Shown here in pieces: positions 3,416 to 36,289 of a stretch of DNA of 36,289 nt. Origin of the DNA: Cytophagaceae bacterium. GTDB lineage: Bacteria > Bacteroidota > Bacteroidia > Flavobacteriales > Flavobacteriaceae. Positions within the stretch are counted from its first letter, which is position 1; each line of letters starts with the position of its first letter. Location: contig PAUP01000047.1 of the NCBI GenBank assembly GCA_002712765.1, forward strand, positions 1 through 36,289, read 5' to 3'. Both the position numbers and the translations under genes were made by a program. The notes under the pieces were generated by a model, which had not been told where the DNA came from, did not search any database, and saw only the letters and a program-made list of their open reading frames with translations.

Positions 3416-5491
3416 ATGAAAACAAAAGACGTACAGCTCTCTCCTGATTTTCGCCGTCAGGCTACCAAAGCGATTCAATCGATCGTATTTTTTATTATGT
3501 CTTATGTGATTTTGTTAGTGCTGGCAGTGGCTCTTACCTTTTTGTGCGTTTTTGGCAGTATTGCCCTTATGAGTGCAAAACCTTCGTTGATCACTCTGGT
3601 AGTTGGTATAGGATTAGCGAGTGTTGGGATATTAGTACTGTTATTTCTGATCAAATTTATCTTTAAATCTAACAAGGTAGATCGTTCAAATCTCATAGAG
3701 GTCAACAGGGCAGAGCAGCCTCAATTATTTGCCATGCTCGATGACATCGTTGAAAAGGTTGGTACAGACTTTCCCAAAAAGGTATACCTCTCTGCCGAGG
3801 TAAACGCCTCGGTATTTTACGATTCGAGCTTTTGGAGTATGATTTTTCCCGTAAGGAAAAATTTATCGATAGGAATGGGACTAATCAATACGATTAGCGC
3901 CTCAGAGCTCAAAGCTATACTCGCGCACGAATTTGGTCATTTTTCTCAGAAAACAATGAAAGTAAGTAGTTATGTCTACTACGTAAATCAAGTTATCTTT
4001 AATTTGCTTAACGACAATGATAATTACCATAATCTCGTACATCGCTGGGCCAATATTCATGGTATTTTTGCCCTCTTCGTATTGCTAGCCCAAAAAGTCA
4101 TTGAAGGCATTCAAAAAACGCTGAGATACCTCTATGGCATAGTCAATAAAAATTACTTGAGCTTGTCTAGAGAGATGGAGTTTCATGCCGATGAAATAGC
4201 TGCGTCTATTACAGGCTATGAGCCTTTGAAAACGTCTTTGCTTCGCATGCAACTTGCCGATATTTCCTTTAATGAGGTATTATCTTTTTATGAAGACAAA
4301 ATAAAAGAGAATCTAAAAAGTCAAAATATTTATAAAGAGCACACCTATGTACTGCACTTTTTTGCCAAAGAAAATAAGCTCCCAATAATTCAGGGTATAC
4401 CCTATATTAAAGAAGAAGAGCTCAATAAACTCAACAAATCCAAACTGAATATAGAAGATCAATGGGCCTCTCATCCCAGTACAGAAGATCGTATTGAACG
4501 TCTCGAAAAAACCACTTGGGCAACCATAGACACTCCCCATATCCATGCCAATGACATCATACAAAACTTAGAGCAATTACAGCATGCCTGCACTCAAAAA
4601 CTCTTTAAAGTGGTAGTATACCAGGGCGAGGTTTCAGAAATCACTCTAGAGGCATTTAAAGAGGCGCATCAAGAAATTTACAATAGCAATGTCTTTGCGA
4701 AAGCTTATAATTCGTATTACGATCACAAAAACCCAATCGGGTTTGATCTGAAGGATATAGCCCAATCTACCCAAAAACTAGATTTTGAAACCCTGTTTGG
4801 CCCAGACAAGATCGACATGGTATATACAGCTGTGGCCCTCGATAATGACATCTTAATACTCAAACAAATAGCAGCAAATGAGCTACCGGTCAAAACCTTT
4901 GACTATGACGGCAAAAAATATAAGAAAAGCGAGAGTAAAGCACTTCAGAATCAATTAAAAACACAGTATGAAGATGTGCAAGCCAGCATCAAAGAAAATG
5001 ACAAGGCCATTTATAGTTATTATCTCCAACTAGAACAACAACTAGATCATACTCCTAGATTAAAAGCCTACTACCAAGAGTTCTTTGCGTTTGACCATGA
5101 CTTTAATGCCAAATTTGAAGTCTACACGGCAATGATGAATCAGTTAATCTTTACTAATGAAATCACTCCACCTGAAGATATCATACTTAATTTTGACCGC
5201 CTTAAATCTTATGAGCATAAACTTAAAACTCATTTAAAATCCATATTAGAAGACGAGCTATACACAAGTGAACTCACGCCCGATATACGAAGCAGTTTTG
5301 AAAAGTACCTAGAAAAACAGTGGGTGTATTTTAATAAAGATCAATATCTAGAGCGACACTTAGAAATCCTTTCTGCAGCGCTTAACAACTTTGCATTTAT
5401 CTATTCTAGAGGCTATTTTCTCTTAAAAAAGAAGGTGCTAGACTATCAAGAGCAGCTGCGTAGTCAACACTTGGCAACTGTAGAGATTTAG
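3416..5491 (+). CDS. M48-family membrane zinc metallopeptidase
   Basis: This 691-residue protein has two N-terminal membrane segments (about 19-53 and 57-83). A gluzincin catalytic core follows: HEFGH at residues 171-175 supplies two zinc-ligand His and the catalytic Glu. MEFHADE supplies the third ligand Glu255 and Asp259, as in M48 (HtpX/Ste24-like) peptidases. A further hydrophobic stretch lies at about 212-228. Family members act in membrane or envelope protein quality control. The C-terminal 350 or so residues are charged and helical, are not recognised, and make the protein much longer than HtpX. No clear promoter is seen upstream. The gene ends 78 bp before mfd, with a weak AAGCC/GGCTT hairpin (5507-5520) between them. 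Confidence 0.88.
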   Translation: MKTKDVQLSPDFRRQATKAIQSIVFFIMSYVILLVLAVALTFLCVFGSIALMSAKPSLITLVVGIGLASVGILVLLFLIKFIFKSNKVDRSNLIEVNRAEQPQLFAMLDDIVEKVGTDFPKKVYLSAEVNASVFYDSSFWSMIFPVRKNLSIGMGLINTISASELKAILAHEFGHFSQKTMKVSSYVYYVNQVIFNLLNDNDNYHNLVHRWANIHGIFALFVLLAQKVIEGIQKTLRYLYGIVNKNYLSLSREMEFHADEIAASITGYEPLKTSLLRMQLADISFNEVLSFYEDKIKENLKSQNIYKEHTYVLHFFAKENKLPIIQGIPYIKEEELNKLNKSKLNIEDQWASHPSTEDRIERLEKTTWATIDTPHIHANDIIQNLEQLQHACTQKLFKVVVYQGEVSEITLEAFKEAHQEIYNSNVFAKAYNSYYDHKNPIGFDLKDIAQSTQKLDFETLFGPDKIDMVYTAVALDNDILILKQIAANELPVKTFDYDGKKYKKSESKALQNQLKTQYEDVQASIKENDKAIYSYYLQLEQQLDHTPRLKAYYQEFFAFDHDFNAKFEVYTAMMNQLIFTNEITPPEDIILNFDRLKSYEHKLKTHLKSILEDELYTSELTPDIRSSFEKYLEKQWVYFNKDQYLERHLEILSAALNNFAFIYSRGYFLLKKKVLDYQEQLRSQHLATVEI

Positions 5492-11059: not shown

Positions 11060-12520
11060 ATGGAAATTCTTACATCTTGTAATGTTGCTTCTATCGATCC
11101 TTTTGTGCCTTCGTCGGGCAACCCTTGGAATGTGGCAAAGGCCAAACACGTCTATAGACGTTTGGCCAATGGCACCTCTGAAGCCAATATTAATATCGCG
11201 GTTGCTGGTAGTCCTGATGAACTTATTGATTCGCTTATAGACGAAGCGATTGCTATGCCCAATACCCCTGCTCCAGATTGGGGATACTGGTCATTTCAGG
11301 ATTACTTAATAGATTACAATACTGAAACCAATGAGCAGCGTGGCATTTGGTACCGCCAGACGGCAAATGATATATTGACAAAGGGCTTAAAAAGCAAGCT
11401 AGCCTTTTTCTGGCTCAATCATTTTGTGACAGAACTTGAATCCTATAATCATCCGCCCTATATGTTTCAGTATTGGGATGATTTACAAACCCACGCCATA
11501 GGTAACTTTAGAGATTTTGTAAGAACAATTGGGCTCAACCCCGCGATGCTATTATACCTGAATGGATTTGAAAACACTAATGTCAATCCCAACGAAAATT
11601 ATGCACGTGAGCTCTTTGAGTTGTTTACTCTTGGCGAAAACAATGGCTATACCCAAACAGATATCGTAGAGACCTCTAGAGCACTTACTGGCTATAATCA
11701 CTGGGCCGATTACGGGGCAGCTATTACCTTTGACAGTAGCACCTTTGACGCTTCAGATAAAACCATTTTTGGACAAACAGGCAATTGGGATTACAATGAT
11801 GTCATCGATATCCTATTTGAACAGAAGGCTGAGCTTATCGCTGCATTTATATGTGAGAAACTCTATCGCTTTTTTGTAAGTCCTGACGTTAATACTGCCG
11901 TTGTCAACGCTATGTCAACTACGCTTCTGGCAAACGACTTTAACATGGAACCCATGCTACGACAGTTGTTTAAAAGCCAACACTTTTTTGATACCGATGC
12001 CAATGGGTTGATCATCAAAAGCCCATACGACATGACCTCTATCTATATCAATGAAACGGGCTTTTTGTATGACAACACCAATGGAGATTATACGAACTTT
12101 ATCATCTACCTCAACGATACCTTAGGGCAAGATATTTATGAACCTGTTGATGTGGCGGGATGGCAAAGAGATCGCGATTGGATCAATACCAGCACCATTT
12201 CTGGGCGTTGGCTAAGTATGGAATACCTCACCTGGCCTATGTGGAATTACGACAACGACCAGTTTAGACAGTTTGCCAAAGATTTGACCAACAATAGTAA
12301 TGACCCCGCTCTGATCACTCAAACCATTGTTGATTTTTTCATCTCCAAACCACTGTATACGGCCTCAGATTATGATAACGCTACAGATGTATTAAAATGG
12401 GAAGTGCCTCAGAATTATTATGACACTGGCCAGTGGAATCTCGATTGGGACTCTGCCGCATACCAGGTCCTGCTTCTTATTCATCACATATTTAAAATGC
12501 CCGAATTCCAATTAAAATAA
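11060..12520 (+). CDS. DUF1800 family protein (copy 1)
   Basis: This 486-residue protein carries the hallmark DUF1800 segments. These are KLAFFWLNHFVTE, NPNENYARELFELFTLGENNGYTQTDIVETSRALTGYNHW (NENYAREL begins at residue 178) and the late VAGWQRDRDWINTSTISGRW. The biochemical role of DUF1800 is not established; its genes are commonly paired with DUF1501 genes, as here. No signal peptide is visible: the N-terminus is MEILTSCNVASIDPFVPSSGNPWN, with Trp and Tyr rather than a hydrophobic helix. Only 6 bp separate it from the DUF1501 gene, so the two should be co-translated. It is homologous along its length to the gene at 14460. Confidence 0.9.
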   Translation: MEILTSCNVASIDPFVPSSGNPWNVAKAKHVYRRLANGTSEANINIAVAGSPDELIDSLIDEAIAMPNTPAPDWGYWSFQDYLIDYNTETNEQRGIWYRQTANDILTKGLKSKLAFFWLNHFVTELESYNHPPYMFQYWDDLQTHAIGNFRDFVRTIGLNPAMLLYLNGFENTNVNPNENYARELFELFTLGENNGYTQTDIVETSRALTGYNHWADYGAAITFDSSTFDASDKTIFGQTGNWDYNDVIDILFEQKAELIAAFICEKLYRFFVSPDVNTAVVNAMSTTLLANDFNMEPMLRQLFKSQHFFDTDANGLIIKSPYDMTSIYINETGFLYDNTNGDYTNFIIYLNDTLGQDIYEPVDVAGWQRDRDWINTSTISGRWLSMEYLTWPMWNYDNDQFRQFAKDLTNNSNDPALITQTIVDFFISKPLYTASDYDNATDVLKWEVPQNYYDTGQWNLDWDSAAYQVLLLIHHIFKMPEFQLK

Positions 12521-12526
12521 GCTGCT

Positions 12527-14176
12527 ATGTGCGATCATCATACTCCTTCTCCCTCTGATAAAGACCAGAAAAAAAGTCATTCGCCATCGGCCAAGATTAC
12601 CGATGCCCATCACAATGAAGAACACGCCACTTGGAATCGTCGTTCCTTTTTACAGGCTTTAGGTTTGATTGGTGGTGGTACCATAATGGTAGGTGGGGCC
12701 AATCTTTCTGCCTCTGTACCTTCGCGTCTTACCGCTGCCCTGGCCAATGCCGAAAACAATGGTCGTATCCTGTTACTCATACGACTTAAAGGGGGTAATG
12801 ATGGTCTCAATACCATAGTGCCGGTTTATGACTATGATTTTTACGCCCAAAACAGACCCAGTATCAAACATGAACTGTCAGATCTGTATTCGCTTTCGCC
12901 AGACTTTGGGATCCCTTCTAGTATGCAACCGTTACAAAGTCTTTGGGGAGATGGTAAAATGAAAGTCGTACACGGTGTAGGCTATCCTGATCAAAACTTA
13001 TCGCATTTTAGAAGTTCGGATATCTGGGCCTCGGCCGATGCCGTAAACGTTGAAAATACGGGTGTTTTTGGGAGGTACTTTGAAGACATTTATCCCGATT
13101 ACCTCATCAACCCGCCTGCAGAGCCGCCAGCCATACAAATAGGAAGTATAGGCAATTTACTCTTTGATGGACTGGATACCACTTATGCCTTTTCGGTGTC
13201 CAATCCAGAGCAATTGGCCAATATTGCCGAAAACGGTGTCTTGCACGATGTGCTTAATATCCCAGGATGTACCTATGGCGATCAATTAGGCTTTATGCGT
13301 GGAATGACCAATACCACCTTTACCTATGCCGGGGTGATTAATCAGGCATACGAAGCCGCGACCAATGCTGTAGAATACGGTGATTCCAGTTTTGCACAAC
13401 AACTTAAGATTGTGGCCAGAATGATTAAGGGTGGTTTAGGCACTCAAGTCTATATGGTCACGCTTAACGGTTTTGACACTCATGCCAATCAAGTTGACGA
13501 TCACAATAGTTTAATGTCTGACTTGTCCACTTCTGTGAAAGCCTTCTATGACGATTTGGGCACGGTAGGGCGGGATCACCGTGTCATAGGTATGACCTTT
13601 TCTGAGTTTGGAAGACGTATAGAAGAAAACGGATCTAACGGCACCGATCACGGGGCAGCTTCTCCAGTGATGATGTTTGGTCCAAAATTAGACGGCAATG
13701 GTTTTATAGGCACTCAGCCCGATTTGCAAACACCAGACACCAATGGTAACCTACAGTTCAATACTGATTTTAGAAGCCTGTATGCTACTGTGCTCAAACA
13801 ATGGTTATGTATTGACGCCGCTTTGGTAGACGAGGTACTGCTGGGTGTGTCTTATGAGACTATAGATCTTGGTTTTGACTGTGAAAGCTTATCTACCGAT
13901 GATTTTTCAAAACCAGATGGGTTTTTGCATCTGGCCACTTATCAAAATCAAATCACCTATCTCGAGTTTACACTACCCTCGCCTGCCAAGATGCACATAG
14001 AGCTCTTTAATATCATTGGTCAAAAAGTGGGTGTCATTAGTAATGATTATATGCTCGCTGGAGCACATAAGATTGATATTAAACAAGCTGTAGGCAAGCG
14101 ATTGTTTACGGGGCAATACATCTATAGGATCAATTATAGCGGGCGTGCTTACAGCAAATCGATACTCATAAAGTAG
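12527..14176 (+). CDS. DUF1501 family Tat-exported protein with T9SS-like C-terminal domain (copy 1)
   Basis: The 549-residue protein begins with a His-rich polar stretch (MCDHHTPSPS...DAHHNEEH, about 36 residues). A twin-arginine signal follows, NRRSFLQALGLIGGG, with Arg38-Arg39. The DUF1501 domain, related to the sulfatase/alkaline phosphatase fold, shows GGNDGLN (89-95), VHGVGY, SHFRSSDIW (Ser159-His160), GFDTHANQ and NGTDHGAA (Asp374-His375). The last 75 or so residues (ELFNIIGQKVGVIS...FTGQYIYRINYSGRAYSKSILIK) match the pattern of a type A T9SS sorting domain, ending in a basic residue. This predicts Tat export followed by T9SS surface delivery, an unusual combination. The substrate is unknown. 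A strong terminator follows. Confidence 0.9.
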   Translation: MCDHHTPSPSDKDQKKSHSPSAKITDAHHNEEHATWNRRSFLQALGLIGGGTIMVGGANLSASVPSRLTAALANAENNGRILLLIRLKGGNDGLNTIVPVYDYDFYAQNRPSIKHELSDLYSLSPDFGIPSSMQPLQSLWGDGKMKVVHGVGYPDQNLSHFRSSDIWASADAVNVENTGVFGRYFEDIYPDYLINPPAEPPAIQIGSIGNLLFDGLDTTYAFSVSNPEQLANIAENGVLHDVLNIPGCTYGDQLGFMRGMTNTTFTYAGVINQAYEAATNAVEYGDSSFAQQLKIVARMIKGGLGTQVYMVTLNGFDTHANQVDDHNSLMSDLSTSVKAFYDDLGTVGRDHRVIGMTFSEFGRRIEENGSNGTDHGAASPVMMFGPKLDGNGFIGTQPDLQTPDTNGNLQFNTDFRSLYATVLKQWLCIDAALVDEVLLGVSYETIDLGFDCESLSTDDFSKPDGFLHLATYQNQITYLEFTLPSPAKMHIELFNIIGQKVGVISNDYMLAGAHKIDIKQAVGKRLFTGQYIYRINYSGRAYSKSILIK

Positions 14177-14203
14177 TGATTTTAACCATTCTGAATTATA
14201 GCT

Positions 14204-14233
14204 AATGGCGTGTTTTGATAACACGCCATTTTT
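14204..14233 (+). terminator. Strong intrinsic terminator after DUF1501 copy 1
   Basis: AATGGCGTGTT (14204-14214) and AACACGCCATT (14220-14230) form a perfect 11-bp stem with a 5-nt loop and end in a T run. It separates the two DUF1800-DUF1501 pairs into independent transcription units. The rest of the gap to 14460 shows nothing clear. Confidence 0.85.
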
Positions 14234-14459
14234 AGTATTACAATTATTTTTTATACTTTACTTTCCCCAAATCATAAGTAGTACCCTTAAAGTTATGTCT
14301 TCCCGTACAACACAGGAACTCGCTTTTAAGACTTCAAAAAAGAAAAAGTATCAATAGCTCTTAGGAGTTATTTGAACATATCCCAATAAAAATTAGCCCT
14401 TGGTTACGCAAGTGCCAGTTGTAATTATTGACTAATTGTCCTTGCTTAAAATGACGCGT

Positions 14460-15917
14460 ATGGAAACACAAACCTCCTGTAATACTGCCACCTTGGCGCC
14501 TTATATTCCCACGACCGAAAACCCTTGGGATATGTATAAAGTACAAAGCCTCTATGCCAAGTTAGGTTTTGGAGAGCATCGTGTAATTATGAACTCGGCC
14601 CTCACTAAAACCCCGCAACAACTCGTATCAGAGCTTTTGACAGAAGCTCGAGATATGCCATTAACTCCAGCACCAGATTGGGGGTATTGGAACAGAGCCC
14701 AGTTTGACAATTCGGCAAATAATTACAATTATTATCGCAGGCAATGGTATCAACAAACCATAGACGACCTTTTGCAAAATGGCTTACGCGAAAGATTAAC
14801 GCTGTTTTGGTCAAACCACTTCGTGACCGAACTACGTGGCTATTTTTCTCCTTCTTATCAATTTCAGTATTACCGAACTTTACAAACACATGCCTTAGGA
14901 AATTTTAAAGACTTTGTTCATGATATTGGCCTTACTGGCGCCATGCTGCTTTACCTCAACGGTTTTCAAAATCGAGAGCATTCGCCTAACGAAAATTATG
15001 CGCGTGAGCTCTATGAACTCTTCACCCTAGGAGTAAACAATGGCTACACAGAGTCAGACATCACAGAAACTGCCAAAGCACTAACGGGTTGGAACCATTG
15101 GTCTTCGCCTTGGTCTCCGATTTATTTTGATACCGATACCTGGGACAATGATTACAAAACCATTTTTGGTCAGACCGATAGATGGAAATACGACGACGTC
15201 ATTGATATTCTCTTTGAAGAAAAAGGTCATTTAATCGCGCCTTTTATAGCCCGAAAACTATATAAGTACTTTGTAAGCCCTGACGTTAATGAAGGTATTG
15301 TATCCGAATTAGGACAGGTTCTCTTAGACAATAACTTTGAACTTGAACCCATGCTCGAAACGCTTTTTTTGAGTGCACATTTTCACGACAGTACCACCCA
15401 AGGGGTACTTATTAAAAGCCCCGTAGATCTTCTATTATCGTTTGAAAATACCAGCGGGCTAACCTTTAATCGTTTTTATAACTACCAAAACCTGTATCGA
15501 GTGTATACCACCAATTTGGGCCAAGAACTCTATAACCCCATCGATGGGGCAGGCTGGCAAGCCGATGAAAATTGGGTGGACTCCAACACCATTGTATTGC
15601 GATGGGATTACCTAGATTTTATTATCGATAAGTTTAAACAAAACAGTACCGACCAATTTAGAAATCTCGCCCTGACAATGCTTGGAGGTAATACCAACGA
15701 TCATATCTTGGTAACCAAAACCATCGTCAATAGCTTTCTAGCCAGAACATTAGTGCAAGATTCAGATTATGATGAGGCAATAGAGGTATTTAAAGGCGAA
15801 GTACCTGGCAATTATTACGACAATGGAATTTGGGATCTCTACTTTGATTCGGTGCCAGATCAGGTCGAAGGACTCTTACGTTATATCACCAAACTCCCTG
15901 AATTTCAATTAAAATAG
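14460..15917 (+). CDS. DUF1800 family protein (copy 2)
   Basis: This is a paralogue of the gene at 11060. Starting at ATG 14460 (METQTSCNTATLAPYIPTTENPWD) it aligns with the start of copy 1; an ATG at 14451 and a TTG at 14436 lie just upstream in frame. It keeps LTLFWSNHFVTELRG, SPNENYARELYELFTLGVNNGYTESDITETAKALTGWNHW and GAGWQADENWVDSNTIVLRW. The C-terminus (LPEFQLK) is almost identical to copy 1 (MPEFQLK). As in copy 1, no signal peptide is visible. The gap to the partner DUF1501 gene is again 6 bp. A decayed palindrome (GCTTACGCGAAAG, 14782-14794) encodes LRER. Confidence 0.9.
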   Translation: METQTSCNTATLAPYIPTTENPWDMYKVQSLYAKLGFGEHRVIMNSALTKTPQQLVSELLTEARDMPLTPAPDWGYWNRAQFDNSANNYNYYRRQWYQQTIDDLLQNGLRERLTLFWSNHFVTELRGYFSPSYQFQYYRTLQTHALGNFKDFVHDIGLTGAMLLYLNGFQNREHSPNENYARELYELFTLGVNNGYTESDITETAKALTGWNHWSSPWSPIYFDTDTWDNDYKTIFGQTDRWKYDDVIDILFEEKGHLIAPFIARKLYKYFVSPDVNEGIVSELGQVLLDNNFELEPMLETLFLSAHFHDSTTQGVLIKSPVDLLLSFENTSGLTFNRFYNYQNLYRVYTTNLGQELYNPIDGAGWQADENWVDSNTIVLRWDYLDFIIDKFKQNSTDQFRNLALTMLGGNTNDHILVTKTIVNSFLARTLVQDSDYDEAIEVFKGEVPGNYYDNGIWDLYFDSVPDQVEGLLRYITKLPEFQLK

Positions 15918-15923
15918 AAAAGT

Positions 15924-17549
15924 ATGTGCAATCATCATAATACAGGCCATATCCATAGTGCACGGCCAAAAACCGACACCAAGCACAACGAAGAACACAA
16001 GACGTGGAATCGTCGCTCTTTTTTACAAGCATTAGGACTTGTAGGAGGGGGCACCATCGCTTTTGCCAATAATGCACTTACCATTAATAAGCCTTCACCG
16101 CTAGGGATGGCACTATCCCAATCTGATAATGAAAACATCTTGGTTATCGTGCGGCTCAAAGGAGGAAATGATGGGCTAAATACGGTTATTCCCATGTATG
16201 ATTATGATACTTACGCCTCGGCAAGGCCAACGATCAAAATAAATCAGCAGGACACCTTTGCGCTAGACTCAGACTTTGCCATGCCCAATTTTATGAACCC
16301 ATTAGAGTCAATCTGGGGCGAAGGAAAAATGAAAGTGGTTCACGGCGTGGGCTATAACGATCAGTCATTGTCCCACTTTACCTCTTCAGACATTTGGGCA
16401 AACACAGATGCCAGCAATCAAGAAGAAACGGGTTGGATGGGACGCTATTTTGAAGATTTGTATCCCGATTATTTATTTAATCCCCCGGCATCTCCTCCGG
16501 CCATCCAGATTGGTAGTGCAGGAAATCTAATATTCGATGGGAGTACGCTCAATTACTCCTTTGCTGTTTCAAACCCTGCTACTTTGTTTTCGATAGCCGA
16601 GAACGGAACGGTTTACGATATCAATAACTTACCAGATTGCACGCATGGTGACAAGCTAGGCTTTCTACGTGGTCTTGTCAATACCACCTACAATTATGCA
16701 GGCACTATCAATGAGGCGTATGAGAACTCTACAGATCAAGCAGATTACGGCACTACAAGTTTGGGCCAGCAGTTAAGTCTGGTAGCCCGTTTAATAAAAG
16801 GTGATCTTGGTACCAAAATTTATATGGTGACTCTCGATGGCTTTGATACGCATAGCAATCAAGCCAACAAACATCAAACTTTGATGAGTACCCTTTCCGA
16901 AACCATGGCTGCTTTTTATCAAGATTTGGAACTGGCAGGCTGGGACGACAAAGTGCTTGGTATGACCATATCAGAATTTGGGCGTCGCCCCTACGAAAAT
17001 GGATCTAATGGTACCGATCACGGTGCGGCTTCGACCATGCTCATGTTTGGGCCAGCACTCAATGGAAATGGGTTTGCAGGTACTCATCCCGACTTAAATG
17101 ATGTAGATGCCCGTGGCAATCTCAAATTTGATGTAGACTATCGTTCGGTATACACTTCTGTTTTAACAGATTGGTTGTGTATCGATAGTGGGTTGGTCAA
17201 TCTCATTATGTTAGGACAGGATTACCCTACCCTTGACCTAGGCTTTAATTGTTCGAGTTTGAGTACTCCAGATTTTGATGCCGCAGCAATGGGCGTCACT
17301 CACGGGGCTTACTATCAAAATGAGGATACCTTTATTCACTTTAAAAATCCAACAACGGCTCATGTGGTGGTCAAACTATACAATCTGTTAGGCCAAGAAA
17401 TAGGTACCATCAAAAACGAGATGCTTTTTTCGGGCAGCCACCAATTTGATGTCAAACGCGCCCTTTCTAAAGAGTTACAGACTGGCCAGTATATCTATCG
17501 TATTGCAGTAAGTGGCAAGTATTACAGTAAATCTTTACTTATTCTATGA
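15924..17549 (+). CDS. DUF1501 family Tat-exported protein with T9SS-like C-terminal domain (copy 2)
   Basis: This 541-residue paralogue of the gene at 12527 has the same order of parts. A His-rich lead (MCNHHNTGHIHSARPKTDTKHNEEH) precedes a twin-arginine signal (NRRSFLQALGLVGGG, Arg30-Arg31). The DUF1501 core follows (GGNDGLNTVIPMYDYD, VHGVGYNDQSLSHFTSSDIW, GFDTHSNQ, ENGSNGTDHGAAS), then a T9SS type A-like tail ending QTGQYIYRIAVSGKYYSKSLLIL. The pre-signal HNEEHxTWNRRSFLQALGL block is nearly the same in both copies, while the region before it varies. That suggests selection on the part around the Tat motif. No terminator is evident downstream; the 209-bp gap to metG holds a decayed palindrome (17623-17638) and the metG promoter. 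Confidence 0.9.
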   Translation: MCNHHNTGHIHSARPKTDTKHNEEHKTWNRRSFLQALGLVGGGTIAFANNALTINKPSPLGMALSQSDNENILVIVRLKGGNDGLNTVIPMYDYDTYASARPTIKINQQDTFALDSDFAMPNFMNPLESIWGEGKMKVVHGVGYNDQSLSHFTSSDIWANTDASNQEETGWMGRYFEDLYPDYLFNPPASPPAIQIGSAGNLIFDGSTLNYSFAVSNPATLFSIAENGTVYDINNLPDCTHGDKLGFLRGLVNTTYNYAGTINEAYENSTDQADYGTTSLGQQLSLVARLIKGDLGTKIYMVTLDGFDTHSNQANKHQTLMSTLSETMAAFYQDLELAGWDDKVLGMTISEFGRRPYENGSNGTDHGAASTMLMFGPALNGNGFAGTHPDLNDVDARGNLKFDVDYRSVYTSVLTDWLCIDSGLVNLIMLGQDYPTLDLGFNCSSLSTPDFDAAAMGVTHGAYYQNEDTFIHFKNPTTAHVVVKLYNLLGQEIGTIKNEMLFSGSHQFDVKRALSKELQTGQYIYRIAVSGKYYSKSLLIL

Positions 17550-30179: not shown

Positions 30180-30829
30180 CCGCCACAGCCCTGATCGAGA
30201 ACACTAAAGAATTTGTCAAAAAAACTTTGCGAGATGCCGAGGGAGGACACGATTGGTTTCATATAGAACGCGTATATCACAACGCGATGCATATCGCCCA
30301 ATACGAGGCGGTAGATACCACTATTGTAGCCTTGGGCGCCCTGTTACACGATATTGCCGACTCCAAATTTCACCAAGGTGATGAAAGCGTAGGCCCACAA
30401 ATAGCCACTCAATTTTTGCTCGATCAAAATGTAGACAGCCGTGTCATAGAACACGTGGTTAAGATTATCAAGCACATCTCTTTTAAAGGAGGTAATACAC
30501 AGCAGCCGTTTACCTCTATCGAACTGGACGTAGTCCAAGATGCAGACAGGCTAGATGCTTTGGGTGCAATAGGAATAGCACGTACCTTTAACTCTGGAGG
30601 ATTTAAAAATCGAAAAATCTACGACCCAGCGATACCTCCAAAAATGGATATGACCCCAGAAGAGTACAAAGCATCTACAGCACCCACACTCAATCATTTT
30701 TACGAAAAACTCTTGCTTCTCAAAGACCGGATGAACACTCAAACAGGAAAAAAACTAGCCGAAAAGCGTCACCGTTTTATGGAGACTTTTCTCAGCCAGT
30801 TTCTCGCCGAATGGCAGGGGGAATTATAA
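30176..30829 (+). CDS. HD-domain phosphohydrolase
   Basis: This 217-residue protein has the HD metal-binding set: GGHDWFHIERV (His29), LLHDIADSKF (His58-Asp59) and the distal VVQDADRLDALGAIGIARTF (Asp122/Asp124). It matches the small YedJ/YpgQ-like HD family, whose members hydrolyse phosphate compounds including nucleotides; the substrate here is unknown. It is coupled to the acyltransferase gene by an ATGA overlap. Its end overlaps by 6 bp that of the large envelope-protein gene on the other strand, the shared TTATAA supplying Leu-stop to both. Confidence 0.92.
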   Translation: MTATALIENTKEFVKKTLRDAEGGHDWFHIERVYHNAMHIAQYEAVDTTIVALGALLHDIADSKFHQGDESVGPQIATQFLLDQNVDSRVIEHVVKIIKHISFKGGNTQQPFTSIELDVVQDADRLDALGAIGIARTFNSGGFKNRKIYDPAIPPKMDMTPEEYKASTAPTLNHFYEKLLLLKDRMNTQTGKKLAEKRHRFMETFLSQFLAEWQGEL

Positions 30830-33800
30830 CATCACCTTTCCTAAGGTGACTTTATCGAGTTGTTTAAATAGTTTGACCACTTTAATTTCGCGCGTTTCCT
30901 GAGGTGTGCCGTAATTTTTAAAGACCGTATACTTTAGAAAGGGAGGCAAAACATAGTCACTTTCGTCGCCCAGGTATTGTATATTGATAAGCCATTCTCC
31001 AGGCGGCGCATCATCAATAATAAATTCTTCCATCTGGAAGCCTTGGCGTTGTTCTTCTTGCAAACGCTCGCGATTTTCTTCTAAGGTATGCGTCCACTTA
31101 AAGAATTTTTTCTCGGGATTGACAAATTGAAATTCAAAAGGCACCGACCTGTCAGACCACTCGACTACCATTCGAATATCGATATTAAAATCGGCGCGTA
31201 GCCACTCATTGGGCAGTCGCTCAAAATCAATCTTATCCTTATGCAGGGTAGCCAAATGATACAATTCGCTGCGCAGTGGTTTTTCTAGGCCGTCAAAATT
31301 GACACCTTTGATACGCTCGCCCAACATATTGATATACAATTCTAAGGCTTTGTCATATTGTCCGTCCTGTTGATAGGCCAAAGCCAGATCTCGATACGAC
31401 TGGGCCTCTTGAGGGGCAATCTTTACGATGCGTTCATTGACCATCACCATATTTTTGGTATCGCCACGCGTATCGTACACATAAGCCAGGGTGCGCAAGG
31501 CTTTGGTATTGTTTCTAGAAATATAGGCCAGGTCGGCACGCACTTCGTCACCCAGTTTAGGATCAAGCTCCGAAAAATAAGCCGCTGCATCCACATAAAA
31601 CTCTAGTGGAGATTCTTGTGTACGCGACAATTTTTGATAGAGTTTAAATTGCTCTTGAGGTGTTCCGCTTTCGCGAAAGCGGATAATGTATGCGGGCAAA
31701 CTAGCATCCATAGCCCCACTATCTGCGACATAGTCGTTACCCGTGACCAAGGCACTTTTTTCTTGAGTTTTGGCCTTGGCTGTAAAGTTCATTTCGGAGG
31801 TTTTGATCAAAAAAGCCCCCCCTGCTGCCAGTGATCCATATCGCGAGGTCGCAGAAGTAGACTTTAAGACAGATATACTTTCAATCTGTTGTACATCCAG
31901 AAATTCTGGAGGGTCTTGATAGGGCACGCCATTAACAATCCAAATAGGTGGCACATCGGTATTGATAGATTGAGACCCGCCGCGTATCTTATAGACAACT
32001 TCACTGCCGCTATACAATCCTCCTGCAACCTCAACCCCAGATACTTTTCCTGTAATTAATTGCCGTAGGTTGGTCGCACCTTGACCAAAGTTTGACTTTG
32101 AAATTGTCTTGGTTGAAGTTCCTATTTTGTCTTCGCTTACTTCACCGTAGGCAGTCTCTACGGTATTATCGACACGCGTACTACCTGCCACTACAATTTC
32201 GTCCAACTGCTGATTTTTGGAAGTCAAAACGACATCTGGAATTTGTCGAGCTTCGATAAGAACTTCTTTAGGATAATAACCGGCTTTGCTGATGACCAAT
32301 ACCTCATCTAAGGGCGCAGTGATTGAAAACATTCCTGACGCATTGGTATACACTTCATTAAAAGAACCTTTTAAGGTGACCGTGGCGTCATTTAAGGGGC
32401 CTTTGGCGTTAAGTACCTTCCCTGTAATAGCGTTACTTGCTGTAGTAGGGGTAGCCATAGTAGCCACCTCTTCTGTATAGTCATTACCCTTTACAAGCAT
32501 ACTTTCTGGAGGGGCAGCGGTAGTGTTGTTAAAGTCTGTGGTAACTATTTCGACAACACCGTTTTTACCTAAGGTTCCGTAACGGGTTGTCCCAATAATC
32601 GATTTGACCACAGAAATGCGCTCCACCCGATCTGGTGAAATCCAGGGTCTATTCACATCTGGCGGAAACAAATTGCCGTCAATGACAATAAGCATATCAC
32701 CTGCACGGCTATTGTTTACGGTAAGACCTTGTATTGGATCTTCTGTGGCAGTGATACTCGCAAAACGCCCATTGAGTACTGTTGCCAAGTCAGGACGGCC
32801 TTGAGGGATATCGGCCTTTGTCAAGACTTTGATATCGTATCCTACCTTATCCTTATTTTCTTTGCCGTATGCGGTCTGAACCATTTCTTCCTTGGCGGCA
32901 TCTCCTGTGAGGACTACCTCATTAAGGACATCATTTTTGGCAATAAGCTCAATCTGGTAGGTAGACTTTCCAGCCTCAATTTCAAAACTTTTAGAATACA
33001 TGCCCAAATAGCGTACAATAAACAAATCGCCTGGAGCAGCGTTTAAGGCAAAAGAACCATCGGCTTTTGAAGTGTATTCGTCAAAAGATCCATTTCTGAT
33101 GAGCGAAGCACCTTGAATAGGACCAGAAGCCGAAAAAACGGTACCACTCACTTCTAAAACTGCTGGATTGCTTTTTGAATAACTGGCTACCTCTTCGGTA
33201 TAGTCATTTCCTTTGACCAAAGGAGAAGGCGTTTTTGTATTACTTTGTTTGTAGCGTTTGGTTTGTATAAAAACCGCAGGGCCTTGGGCTCCAGTGATGC
33301 CAATTACTCCAATTCTATTCTTTTTTATAGATATGGTCTCTATCAACATCCCAGATAGGGCTTCAACCTCTAAAGCAATGGTAGGTCGACCATCTATAAA
33401 ATAAACGGGCTCTGCACCCCTTACATACAGTATTCCGTCTTTGTAGACTACATTAGATATTTTACCGCTCAAGCCTTGTAATATCCCCAAACCAGCATCG
33501 AGATGTTCAAATTTATAATCGTCTCTAGTCAATGTCGTTACATCATAACGTCTACCGTCAAGATAAAACATACCTTTTTCGGTATCTGGGCCTGTACCAT
33601 TGATGATATCTTCATTTTTAGTCTTTCCTTTTAGGGTGACTTCATTGAGTAAATCACTAGAAGGCAGCAGCTCAATGGCTATATTGGGGTTGTCTTTTAC
33701 CAAAACGTCCTTGCCATACATCCCCAAATAGCGCACTTGCAATACATCGCCTTGTTGTGCTTCGATTTCAAATTGACCATCTGCATTGGTGTACACTTCC

Positions 33801-35473
33801 TTAAACGTACCTTTTACAGTAACCGATGCGCCTTGTATCGTTCCCGAAGGTGAAGAAATCACGCCTCTAATTTTTGACCAATTTTTGACCACCCCGTCAG
33901 AAATTCCCGCTATATCCTCGGTATACTCATTGCCTTTAACAAGCGCCGAATTAACGCGCTTAGCTTTTGCTAATGGAGCAGACTTTGTGGTTACAATAAT
34001 GGCACGTCCTGAGATTAAAGGCCCATATCTCGTTGTCATAAAACCAGAATCCTTTAAAACGATTGACTCGATATCGGTATCGGGTATGTAAAATGGAGGT
34101 GGCTCTCCAGGGCCAAGCTCGATACCATTGACAATAAATTTGCCTAAAGGGTCTCCCTTGTAAACCAACAAAGGACCTCCAGGACGATGAGAGATCACCA
34201 CCTGAGCAAACAAATCGCGTATTACCATTTCTAAAGTACGTCCATTAGGAGTAATATCGTCGCTAGTGACAAAAAAGTCTCCCATAGAAGTCACTCCTCC
34301 AGGAGCAAAAGGCACCGTGGTACCTTTCATTTCTTTTGCCCCAACAATGACCGTCTTGTACTTGCTGGTAAGCACAACTTCTTTTAAAACATCATTTTTG
34401 GGAATGAGTTCGACCGCTATGTCTTCACCTTCTTTGACTAGAGCCTCTTTTGGGTACATCCCTAGATATGTGATAGAAAGAATATCCCCGTCTCTAGCTG
34501 GAATTTGAAAACTCCCGTCAGAGGCTGTCGCATATTCTTGTAAAGTACCTTTGATATATACCGATGCTCCTTGTAAAGGTTTTCCTAGACTATTAACCAC
34601 CCCTGATATCATTGGGAGGGTTGCCCTTGCTTTAGTCGCTTCTTGCTTGTTGTTTTCTTGCACGGCTATGCCCGGAATGGACGGTCTTACTGGGTCAAGA
34701 TTAGTATCAAACAGCGGAGCAAAACTACCCATTGTATAAGCAGCGGTATTGGCCAAAAAAGCTATTCCTTCTGCATTTTTTTGAGTGGTCACCGTATGCA
34801 CGGGCACCTCATTTGGAACATTTAATAACCCATAGTCTGGCTGGCCATTAGAAAATAATATGATCTGATCGGCGTCACCGGCTGCTAACACATTGTAATT
34901 TGATGGACCGTTGTAGGTCTGGCTGTTTACGCTTTCGCGAAAGCGCACTCCCTTTCCATCCCAAACAGTCCAGGGTATAACATTATGTATTTTATCACTA
35001 AAAATCTCGAGCTGTACCTCGGCCTCAGGAGTCTTATTCAAAAACTGTACTAGATATTGCCATTCCTTATCTGGGTCTCTTTTTTGCATGCCTTCAGAGA
35101 TATCCCAAAACACTTTGATCTTAGTACCTGGTAGCCTTGTTTTTGTCGTTGCCTTAGAGAGCTGAAACCTACTATTGGTATACAACAATGCCCTAAGTGC
35201 GTCTGCATCTAGTCGAATCGTTTCATACCCCGCTGCACGCACTAGCAGTTGTGAATTGTCATTTATAACCTGATGGTATTTTTTATAAACAAAACGCCCA
35301 TTGGCTTGACTTAAAACACCTATGCCCTGGTCCATTACTCCAATTTTTGCATCTGCGATAGGTGCATTGGTTTGTGCATCTGTCACCAAGCCCCGAAAGA
35401 CTGTCTGTGCACAGGTAGAAAATGCTAAGAAAAGGCAACTAATGAAGAGGAGATGGTGTCGTGTTGGAAGCAT
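30824..35473 (-). CDS. Giant exported protein: VWA-like domain plus repeated regulatory/Plug-like modules and C-terminal TPR domain
   Basis: The 1549 residues start with a signal peptide ending near CAQ23. The order is: carboxypeptidase-regulatory-like domain (about 25-106), then VWA-like domain (about 118-245, with a MIDAS-like DISEGM at 124-129 and DQIILFSNG). Next come four modules, each a regulatory-like beta domain followed by a TonB Plug-like domain. They span about 287-497, 533-738, 773-980 and 1014-1226. Beta domains share GASVYIKGT...DG.F and YLGMY; Plug parts share VNG/IDG, IESI..LK and RYG. Modules end with LVKGNEYTEDIA (511-522), LVKGNDYTEEVA (752-763 and 993-1004) or LVTGNDYVAD (1242-1251). 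A TPR region (YRDLALAYQQDGQYDKALELY) and a DUF2135-like beta domain close the protein. There is no 22-strand barrel, so it is not a transporter. Palindromes encode RFRES at 177-181 and 1265-1269. Confidence 0.85.
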   Translation of the reverse strand: MLPTRHHLLFISCLFLAFSTCAQTVFRGLVTDAQTNAPIADAKIGVMDQGIGVLSQANGRFVYKKYHQVINDNSQLLVRAAGYETIRLDADALRALLYTNSRFQLSKATTKTRLPGTKIKVFWDISEGMQKRDPDKEWQYLVQFLNKTPEAEVQLEIFSDKIHNVIPWTVWDGKGVRFRESVNSQTYNGPSNYNVLAAGDADQIILFSNGQPDYGLLNVPNEVPVHTVTTQKNAEGIAFLANTAAYTMGSFAPLFDTNLDPVRPSIPGIAVQENNKQEATKARATLPMISGVVNSLGKPLQGASVYIKGTLQEYATASDGSFQIPARDGDILSITYLGMYPKEALVKEGEDIAVELIPKNDVLKEVVLTSKYKTVIVGAKEMKGTTVPFAPGGVTSMGDFFVTSDDITPNGRTLEMVIRDLFAQVVISHRPGGPLLVYKGDPLGKFIVNGIELGPGEPPPFYIPDTDIESIVLKDSGFMTTRYGPLISGRAIIVTTKSAPLAKAKRVNSALVKGNEYTEDIAGISDGVVKNWSKIRGVISSPSGTIQGASVTVKGTFKEVYTNADGQFEIEAQQGDVLQVRYLGMYGKDVLVKDNPNIAIELLPSSDLLNEVTLKGKTKNEDIINGTGPDTEKGMFYLDGRRYDVTTLTRDDYKFEHLDAGLGILQGLSGKISNVVYKDGILYVRGAEPVYFIDGRPTIALEVEALSGMLIETISIKKNRIGVIGITGAQGPAVFIQTKRYKQSNTKTPSPLVKGNDYTEEVASYSKSNPAVLEVSGTVFSASGPIQGASLIRNGSFDEYTSKADGSFALNAAPGDLFIVRYLGMYSKSFEIEAGKSTYQIELIAKNDVLNEVVLTGDAAKEEMVQTAYGKENKDKVGYDIKVLTKADIPQGRPDLATVLNGRFASITATEDPIQGLTVNNSRAGDMLIVIDGNLFPPDVNRPWISPDRVERISVVKSIIGTTRYGTLGKNGVVEIVTTDFNNTTAAPPESMLVKGNDYTEEVATMATPTTASNAITGKVLNAKGPLNDATVTLKGSFNEVYTNASGMFSITAPLDEVLVISKAGYYPKEVLIEARQIPDVVLTSKNQQLDEIVVAGSTRVDNTVETAYGEVSEDKIGTSTKTISKSNFGQGATNLRQLITGKVSGVEVAGGLYSGSEVVYKIRGGSQSINTDVPPIWIVNGVPYQDPPEFLDVQQIESISVLKSTSATSRYGSLAAGGAFLIKTSEMNFTAKAKTQEKSALVTGNDYVADSGAMDASLPAYIIRFRESGTPQEQFKLYQKLSRTQESPLEFYVDAAAYFSELDPKLGDEVRADLAYISRNNTKALRTLAYVYDTRGDTKNMVMVNERIVKIAPQEAQSYRDLALAYQQDGQYDKALELYINMLGERIKGVNFDGLEKPLRSELYHLATLHKDKIDFERLPNEWLRADFNIDIRMVVEWSDRSVPFEFQFVNPEKKFFKWTHTLEENRERLQEEQRQGFQMEEFIIDDAPPGEWLINIQYLGDESDYVLPPFLKYTVFKNYGTPQETREIKVVKLFKQLDKVTLGKVML
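31664..31683. repeat. Longest palindrome copy (20 bp), in the giant envelope gene
   Basis: TCCGCTTTCGCGAAAGCGGA is a perfect 20-bp palindrome, the longest copy in the window. It encodes RFRES (residues 1265-1269) on the minus strand. Confidence 0.9.
34930..34945. repeat. GCTTTCGCGAAAGC palindrome in the VWA-like region of the giant gene
   Basis: CGCTTTCGCGAAAGCG is a perfect 16-bp palindrome encoding RFRES (residues 177-181) on the minus strand. Confidence 0.9.
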
Positions 35474-35484
35474 AGTGATTGGTT

Positions 35485-36289
35485 TTAGTTTAAGGTAATC
35501 TTGCCTAGCGTTACCTTTTGCGATTGTTCATTCAAATCAATAATTTTTACTGTTTTTGTTTGATTAGGGGTAGCGTATTGCTCGTATATGGTGTATTTCA
35601 AATATTTGGGGGTAGTGGTCTTTTCAATTTCGAGACTTTCGATATTGATGAGCCACTCTCCTGGAGGGGCTTCATCCAAAGCAAATTCTTGGAGGGTATA
35701 CCCTTTTGAATACTCCTCTTGAATTCTTGCTAATTGTTCCCACTTGGTATGTGTCCATTTGAAATATTTGGCATTTGGGTTGACAAATTGAATCTCAAAG
35801 GCCATAGCTGGGTCTACCCATTCAAAAACCAAGCGGCGATCTTTTTTAAATCGAACATCCAAGAGTTCATTGGGCAAGTCTTGATAACGCACTTTTGATT
35901 TGTGAAAGGCGAGGAGATGTAATAATTCATTCTCAAGCGTTTCTTTTAGAGGTTCAAAATCCAGCCCTTTGATCTGATTATTGAGTAGCTGCTTGTAGAT
36001 CGAAAAAGCCTCCTGATATTGGCCATTATCCTGATAGGCAAGCGCCAGATCACGATAAAATTGAATTTCGTTGGGCGCAAGACTAATAAGATGAGTTGCA
36101 AGGGCTACGCGTTCTTGTGTCATCCCAAAGCGATCCAACTGATAGCCTAGTGTCTTAAGCACTTCAATATTTTTGGGATATAATGCACTTATGGTCATCA
36201 GTATGTTTTGGGCCTTTTTTGGATTCCATTTTCTAAAATACTGAGCACTGTGTAGTAAAAAAGACAGCTCTTCTCCTCTGGCTCCAGCT
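35485..36289 (-). CDS. Paralogue of the giant protein's C-terminus (partial, runs off the right edge)
   Basis: This frame has no start in the window. It stays open through the last complete codon (36288), 30 codons upstream of the first internal ATG at 36198, so the gene is cut by the window edge. The visible 267 or so residues hold a TPR-like region (FYRDLALAYQDNGQYQEAFSIYKQLL). They then have the same terminal beta domain as the giant protein: VFEWVDPAMAFEIQFVNPNAKYFKWTHT, LDEAPPGEWLINI, YTIYEQYATPNQTKTVKI and a final VTLGKITLN against VTLGKVML. The stop is 11 bp before the giant gene's ATG, so the two form an operon. Whether the missing N-terminal part also has VWA and Plug-like modules cannot be seen. 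Confidence 0.85.
   Translation of the reverse strand, partial: AGARGEELSFLLHSAQYFRKWNPKKAQNILMTISALYPKNIEVLKTLGYQLDRFGMTQERVALATHLISLAPNEIQFYRDLALAYQDNGQYQEAFSIYKQLLNNQIKGLDFEPLKETLENELLHLLAFHKSKVRYQDLPNELLDVRFKKDRRLVFEWVDPAMAFEIQFVNPNAKYFKWTHTKWEQLARIQEEYSKGYTLQEFALDEAPPGEWLINIESLEIEKTTTPKYLKYTIYEQYATPNQTKTVKIIDLNEQSQKVTLGKITLN

Follow-up and report, generated by a model that had tools for sequence, protein, structure and literature searches.

The stretch analysed here, called the window, comprises 36,289 nucleotides of contig PAUP01000047.1 from a marine Cytophagaceae bacterium of the Flavobacteriaceae (assembly GCA_002712765.1). Positions 30824-35473 on its reverse strand are occupied by one intact open reading frame (ORF) with an ATG start and without internal stops, encoding an exported protein of 1549 amino acids (aa) in which four modules, each consisting of a CarbopepD_reg_2 domain (CPD) followed by a TonB receptor-type plug, are strung between a VWA domain and a TPR region. 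No family of a transmembrane β-barrel is found by Pfam or NCBIfam in the protein, nor in the adjacent genes. That four regulatory-beta and Plug-like pairs stand here without a barrel had been proposed in a sequence-only reading of the window and is borne out by Pfam, NCBIfam and profiles built from the family, with the last of which the following domain borders in the window protein were set.

30824-35473, (-) strand: whole gene, 1549 aa; exported protein with signal peptide, CPD, VWA, four CPD and Plug modules, TPR region and DUF2135-like end
35405-35473, (-) strand: signal peptide, aa 1-23, ending in STCAQ; boundary and cleavage site probable
35144-35398, (-) strand: first CPD domain, aa 26-110, with no plug after it
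34712-35119, (-) strand: VWA fold, aa 119-254, with the degenerate metal site DISEGM / NGPSN / SNG; Z of about 14 to VWA domains
33974-34609, (-) strand: module M1, CPD and remote plug, aa 289-500
34370-34387, (-) strand: Ton-box-like string LKEVVL of M1, aa 363-368
33248-33871, (-) strand: module M2, CPD and remote plug, aa 535-742; lowest identity to relatives
33632-33649, (-) strand: Ton-box-like string LNEVTL of M2, aa 609-614
32528-33151, (-) strand: module M3, CPD and plug, aa 775-982; SusC 5fq7_D with Z 8.9
32909-32926, (-) strand: Ton-box-like string LNEVVL of M3, aa 850-855
31787-32428, (-) strand: module M4, CPD and canonical plug, aa 1016-1229; SusC 6z9a_B with Z 11.9
32189-32206, (-) strand: Ton-box-like string LDEIVV of M4, aa 1090-1095
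30842-31690, (-) strand: TPR region and DUF2135-like β domain, aa 1262-1544; highest similarity among relatives

A plug is usually regarded as the gate of its own barrel. Each module of the window protein constitutes the N-terminal portion of a SusC/RagA receptor, a type of nutrient importer on which the TonB motor normally pulls: the N-terminal extension (NTE, PF13715), a Ton-box-like string, present as a motif in every module, and the plug follow one another in the same order, in four copies. While SusC/RagA receptors have a barrel, the protein has none, and the cassette is instead repeated up to four times between the VWA domain and the TPR-DUF2135 end. The whole protein is matched by CarbopepD_reg_2 (5.6e-47, five stretches), Plug (1.6e-11, two stretches) and TPR families of Pfam as well as, over four stretches (2.6e-77), by the NCBIfam model of SusC/RagA receptors, TIGR04056, whose score of 261 bits stays below the cut-off of 368, as expected because the barrel is missing.

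Between themselves, the modules are 28-35% identical over most of their length in five of the six BLAST pairs, and M1 and M2 share 50% identity confined to the CPD half. Taken alone, the plug part of M4 is recognized by Pfam Plug (8.1e-11) and that of M3 below the Pfam cut-off (0.0016), and those of M1 and M2 give no Pfam match at E<=10. Profile-profile comparison with four SusC plugs, which the sequence-only reading had suggested as a check, matches all four position classes at 94-99.5% probability, namely the first modules at 94.2%, the second of four at 96.6% (a group of three modules only, one of which, the second module of L068, clusters with first modules in the tree), the second-last at 98.4% and the last at 99.5%, with eight control comparisons of VWA or C-terminal profiles with plug profiles not exceeding 0.81%; the SusC set consists of four sequences, out of eight loci, retained if DE[VI]V was present. 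In AlphaFold2 models (mean predicted local distance difference test of 82.1 for residues 22-757 and 83.7 for residues 772-1549), the M4 plug superposes on SusC 6z9a_B with a root-mean-square deviation (rmsd) of 2.5 over 107 residues at 26% identity, the M3 plug on 5fq7_D with an rmsd of 2.3 over 94 residues at 28% identity, and the CPDs of M2 and M4 on the SusC NTE 9hfj (Z 14.4 and 14.9). A profile of M3, M4 and the C-terminus matches SusC 8aa4_A across CPD and plug (6e-32). The strand order of the M1 and M2 plugs in the model is plug-like by eye, the structure match list of this part being filled by VWA domains, so that a plug missing from it carries no weight. The proposed Plug fold thus has solved SusC counterparts for M3 and M4, and M1 and M2 are probably remote plugs, matched by profile comparison only. 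Behind the last plug, the TPRs and the β domain stand in the model; although DUF2135 in the window copy alone reaches 12.8 bits against a Pfam cut-off of 22, this end aligns family-wide with Pfam-positive relatives.

Relatives were collected as the best 80 of 176 confirmed matches, which correspond to 74 loci (some are fragments, and L063 and L075 overlap); the closest among them are all from Dokdonia. In this family, the string L.E[VIT].[VIL] stands between CPD and plug in 144 of 157 modules, and behind the CPD it is met in 142 of 153 cases where a plug comes next versus 16 of 63 plug-free first CPDs. Over 136 non-redundant modules its Leu is invariant (136/136), and Val (120/136) and Glu (124/136) are nearly so, which puts the three positions on ranks 3, 8 and 9 of 222 columns. 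First modules of Dokdonia keep the string in 13 of 13 cases and the plug Arg-Gly in only three of 13, the counts of RG, VDG and YG being plain patterns in fixed stretches. A second short motif, GN.[YF], forms the linker behind 80 of the 157 plugs (in the window for example LVKGNEYTED and LVKGNDYTEE). Two ORFs considered as controls were set aside: L119 6431-7360 was dropped as a plug-free control, its string LNEAIV misfitting the pattern and the ORF resembling the first half of a family gene that has been broken, and L105 11720-14245 was not used as a CPD-only control, as it has a plug. In the SusC protein BT1763, the NTE (PF13715) stands before the Ton box VDEVVV, which is separate from the NTE body, and Ton-box mutants, which grow as poorly as a strain without SusD, are reported there to be non-functional (PMC7782687). 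The CP domain is reportedly implicated in the contact of TonB-dependent transporters with TonB, as stated with reference to Pollet et al. in PMC12204202.

Four-module copies occur in five Dokdonia genomes: besides the window protein, these are a protein of the isolate D. pacifica (1542 aa), one of MAG-87 (1542 aa) and two copies truncated by contig ends. Because the gene recurs in the genome of an isolate, it is no assembly artefact. Three-module proteins are found in further Dokdonia, UBA1903 and UBA3611, and two-module proteins in MAG-19 and Patiriisocius, with modules counted by their CPDs and the plug unrecognized in one module of L076, one of L093 and two of L077. The commonest architectures of the family have one module, some without a recognized VWA domain, down to 566 residues. 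Tandem family genes, at least two and up to five per locus, occupy 37 of the 74 loci, and in all 37 multi-gene loci they lie on the same strand. A count of 53 of 59 genomes includes ordinary SusC matches and is not used as a prevalence. Two neighbouring ORFs in L119, 6431-7360 and 7441-9048 (309 and 535 aa), jointly resemble one family gene of the type of L120 6389-9070 that has been broken or interrupted.

In a module tree for which 113 of 161 rows were used, modules cluster by position. One clade of 14 rows (100/100) unites 13 Dokdonia first modules with one second module (L068), another of 17 rows (100/99) holds 13 last modules and four close single modules, and a third of nine rows (100/98) comprises second-last modules, while L061, L065 and L070 have theirs in other places of the tree; the deepest forks are weak (79/71). 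It follows that the amplification of the modules is old and that positions have largely been kept. Cassettes of L133 4576-7755 and L134 1-2418, three and two CPD-Plug units without a VWA domain, form a clade of their own (100/100) and represent a separate amplification. Measured against 11 Dokdonia multi-module proteins, median identity of the window protein amounts to 48% for the first CPD (10 proteins), 40% for the VWA domain, 51% for M1, 34% for M2, 53% for M3, 63% for M4 and 74% for the C-terminus, which indicates a constrained TPR-DUF2135 end and a much less constrained VWA domain.

The sequence-only reading had also seen a VWA domain with a MIDAS-like DISEGM (MIDAS, metal ion-dependent adhesion site). 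The fold stands: although Pfam gives no match for the VWA piece of the window protein taken alone, the model superposes on VWA domains with a Z of about 14 over about 145 residues, which predicts a clear VWA fold, and it resembles the VWA domains of adhesins and of ITIH proteins. The metal site of VWA domains has the motif DxSxS...T...D; the window protein departs from it, reading DISEGM / YNGPSNY / LFSNGQ at these positions, so 'MIDAS-like' was generous for a degenerate site. Relatives of the VIT type have DxSxS in 23 of 23 and [ST]DG in 20 of 23 cases, and the remaining 74 rows, a group in which the Dokdonia rows of loci L041-L054 are counted, have them in 35 and 36 cases respectively. An adhesin with a working MIDAS was rejected on account of the degenerate site of the window protein.

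At the N-terminus, 111 of 116 complete family sequences show a hydrophobic run with [ASG]Q behind it, as type I signal peptides of Bacteroidota have. A permissive lipobox-like string occurs in seven of the 116, the window protein among them, where LFISC with Cys13 lies inside the hydrophobic stretch and is a doubtful lipobox; a lipid anchor on the window protein would nevertheless be conceivable. A C-terminal sorting domain of the type IX secretion system (T9SS) is not reported for the window protein by Pfam or NCBIfam at E<=1. With signal peptides of the [ASG]Q type, few lipobox-like strings and no T9SS domain reported, a periplasmic location is probable.

The backbone of the protein is found outside the family. 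Its C-terminal profile matched 31 of 296 genomes sampled across the phylum, the window's own among them; four of the 30 other matches cover about 120 TPR columns only, near 1e-11, and were set aside, which leaves a full-length match in at least 26 of 295 genomes, a lower bound, as at most eight candidates were scored per genome. Twenty of the 26 regions were retrieved, and in 19 of the 20 proteins VIT and VWA domains precede the TPR-DUF2135 end. The interval between VWA and TPR, or the start of the VIT-less protein, holds nothing recognized in 12, a CPD in four, a CPD-Plug in three and a plug in one. The L057 protein holds all six domains, VIT (2.3e-19), CPD (4.9e-20), Plug (8.4e-22), DUF2135 (1.4e-10), VWA_2 and TPR, the last two below their cut-offs (0.0016 and 0.018). 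VIT is detected in the window protein neither by Pfam nor by a profile built from the family and run at full sensitivity (E<=10), and a CPD stands in its place. Since the sampled relatives are mostly plug-free VIT-VWA-TPR-DUF2135 proteins, the cassette looks inserted into this backbone and later amplified. The simplest account would be that a VIT-VWA-TPR-DUF2135 ancestor gained a CPD-Plug, that VIT was replaced by a CPD in some paralogues and that the cassette was amplified in Dokdonia and near relatives; the order of these steps is provisional.

Several known proteins share parts of this architecture. VIT-VWA-TPR-DUF2135 proteins of Bacteroidota have the VWA domain and a homologous TPR-DUF2135 end in common with the window protein, and in some of them a CPD or CPD-Plug occupies the corresponding position, while the window protein differs by the CPD in place of VIT, the degenerate metal site and the amplified cassettes. 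VWA proteins of the YfbK type in loci of the Maribacter group likewise fuse a barrel-less CPD, usually with a plug, to a VWA domain and lie one to three genes from family members, but their plug is N-terminal to the VWA domain, which belongs to another family (PF12450, PF12034), and they have no TPR. Five such proteins of about 700 aa without a barrel were observed (L109 3297-5429, L118 5454-7559, L119 2763-4856, L120 2739-4820 and L128 4961-7123), in which the plug exceeds the Pfam cut-off in L109, L120 and L128, is unreported by Pfam in L118 and is found by the local profile only in L119; next to the one in L118 lies an ORF of 208 aa with two plug stretches (4817-5440; Plug 4.1e-17). BamP, a periplasmic subunit of the β-barrel assembly machinery (BAM) of F. 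johnsoniae, shares the NTE-like CPD domain, but has a single CPD, a loop inserted into the BamA barrel and a three-helix end, without plug, VWA or TPR. PorE, a T9SS component, is an envelope protein that unites a CP domain and a CpoB-like part, as described in PMC12204202, but has TolB- and Pal-like parts where the window protein has VWA, plugs and DUF2135.

No description of proteins of this architecture was found in literature searches on combinations of plug, VWA, VIT, YfbK and DUF2135, a weak negative, as subscription papers were mostly outside the search. The proposal that no described system has this order of parts therefore stands as far as papers were found, but 'new system' was too strong a term: the window protein belongs to a flavobacterial family with kinship to VIT-VWA-TPR-DUF2135 proteins, of which it is the member with the greatest expansion seen, other barrel-less proteins with CPD-Plug and VWA, those of the YfbK type, lie near family genes in some relatives, and both the domains and the backbone are known, whereas their barrel-less and strongly amplified arrangement is undescribed. 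In Flavobacteriaceae, plug domains are reported to be about twice as frequent as the PF00593 barrel (1.13 versus 0.55%, PMC7440613). This is compatible with barrel-less plugs without demonstrating them, because other barrel families exist.

In the window, an HD-domain gene and an acyltransferase gene run towards the 3' end of the gene in convergent orientation, and directly upstream of it lies a paralogue:

35485-36288, (-) strand: tandem paralogue, C-terminal part, 267 codons running off the contig end; 44% identical to the TPR-DUF2135 part

None of these neighbours is a barrel gene, the presence of which would have pointed to a split receptor. The neighbourhood is conserved as far as the same gene clusters border the locus in other Dokdonia, but differs in other lineages, where annotated neighbours are mostly metabolic. 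Ten representatives of neighbour clusters comprise MR_MLE, Rce1-like, AMP-binding, M24 peptidase, radical SAM, enoyl-CoA hydratase, histidine kinase, carboxyl transferase and ABC proteins and one without a family; a function deduced from neighbours was rejected, as the annotated ones resemble housekeeping genes and vary from lineage to lineage. The radical SAM gene is present in 12 loci (for example L102 8045-9121) and is the next listed ORF upstream of the family genes in eight, which may be mere synteny. Elsewhere in the window (11060-17546), a DUF1800-DUF1501 gene pair is duplicated in tandem.

The own genome of the window protein (78% complete) has 17 Plug matches. Ten are in ORFs with a recognized barrel, four in long ORFs in which none is recognized (L186, L189, L194 and L195) and three in ORFs without a barrel: the window protein, a paralogue on C81 and a protein on C54. 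The last (L199 1139-1801), another barrel-less plug piece, is a Spy/LTXXQ-like protein of 221 aa (Metal_resist 2e-10) which ends in the second half of a plug, with a match of 21.0 bits just under the Pfam cut-off. Among the relatives, L105 11723-14245 on the (-) strand encodes 841 aa with CPD and Plug and without a Pfam barrel at 0.001, and is possibly a receptor with a barrel that escapes Pfam.

Of the functions that can be considered, the one tentatively preferred here, at less than even confidence, is that of a periplasmic, multivalent TonB client or adaptor. The VWA domain and the TPR-DUF2135 anchor would form a periplasmic adaptor, with the four barrel-less SusC-type cassettes between them serving as Ton-box handles; TonB, driven by ExbB/ExbD, would bind one cassette or more and, rather than open a transporter, would pull on, position or be held by the binding partners of the VWA, TPR and DUF2135 domains. 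We infer the binding of TonB and the purpose of the multivalency from sequence. Among the roles named in the sequence-only reading, engagement of TonB is the option which the sequences favour most, with the Ton-box string among the best-conserved columns. Force transduction has been proposed for VWA genes beside TPR and TolQ-like motor genes (PMC12204202).

Several observations weigh against such a client. No TonB, ExbB or ExbD gene is present in the annotated part of the neighbourhood. The sixteen plug-free first CPDs that carry the string, together with its occurrence in the CPD of L130 1-1189 with no plug in view (an ORF cut by the locus end), mean that part of its conservation may be structural, and some of its retention is inheritance, because the sequences descend from SusC. 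By pattern, the string is missing in 13 of 157 modules, outside Dokdonia in four of 13 modules of multi-module proteins and nine of 79 in single ones, and the plug hallmarks YG and DG are kept about equally well (Gly in 124 and 125 of 136), so that the Ton box is not singled out everywhere.

Ranked next, as a close rival and nearly as credible, is a domestication of the cassette: captured into a VIT-VWA-TPR-DUF2135 protein, it would serve as a binding or spacer repeat in the manner of Ig repeats, without contact to TonB or a barrel. Module numbers from one to four among paralogues and species, the separate amplification in L133/L134, the hardly recognizable plugs of M1 and M2 and the low conservation of M2 (median 34% versus 74% for the C-terminal part) are in line with this, as are the 20 phylum-wide relatives, which at the same place have nothing recognized (12), a plug (4) or only a CPD (4); going by a title cited in PMC12419801, the structure of a neisserial plug is retained in the absence of the barrel. 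By itself, however, a domesticated repeat leaves the invariant Ton-box Leu and the near-invariant Glu and Val unexplained, as well as the rarer occurrence of the string behind first CPDs that lack a plug.

An accessory role in outer-membrane biogenesis, in which the NTE-like domains would dock on the POTRA domains of BamA as does BamP and help to assemble SusC-type receptors, is unlikely. It draws on the N-terminal domain of BamP, which binds BamA POTRA 4/5 according to PMC12611786, on the NCBIfam BamP model, which matches the window protein over four stretches (8e-18), and on chain E of the F. johnsoniae BAM complex 9n2d, unnamed in the structure listing and presumably BamP, which matches the M3 CPD (Foldseek 4.3e-4; VIA Z 10.5 over 81 residues). 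The similarity, however, is confined to the CPD fold and scores 64.7 bits where the cut-off is 230; neither a loop like that of BamP nor a three-helix end is seen in the window protein, and no bam gene among the annotated neighbours.

Slightly less probable again is a surface scaffold, adhesin or decoy for SusC-type partners, all of them put forward in the sequence-only reading, with scaffold and adhesin now less well supported. The adhesin- and ITIH-like VWA fold, the repeated modules, the low identity in the N-terminal half and the lipobox-like string with Cys13 would suit a surface protein, but the position of this Cys within the hydrophobic stretch, the 109 of 116 complete N-termini without such a string, the degenerate metal site and the lack of any reported T9SS sorting family make it improbable. 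Last comes an ordinary TonB-dependent receptor that was split or has decayed, or else an artefact of assembly. In its favour could be quoted the homology of every module to a receptor N-terminus, and the single locus among the 74 (L091) with an ordinary receptor of CPD, plug and barrel, on the opposite strand and some 2.7 kb away from the family gene (receptors without CPD or plug would be missed in this count). This reading is refuted by the recurrence of the four-module protein in D. pacifica and other genomes, besides the intact, stop-free frame, the absence of an adjacent barrel gene in the window and the one-strand tandem order in all multi-gene loci.

That Bacteroidota use the TonB motor on barrel-free clients, periplasmic VWA/TPR proteins with arrays of SusC-derived Ton-box handles, and thereby as a general force or positioning device within the envelope that does more than open transporters, is at present a doubtful, though possible, generalization. 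The family provides a hint that the TonB motor may act on something other than transporters, and a barrel-less chain with a nearly invariant Ton box makes the existence of non-transporter TonB clients, and likewise the role of NTE domains in non-transporter proteins of Bacteroidota, directly testable.

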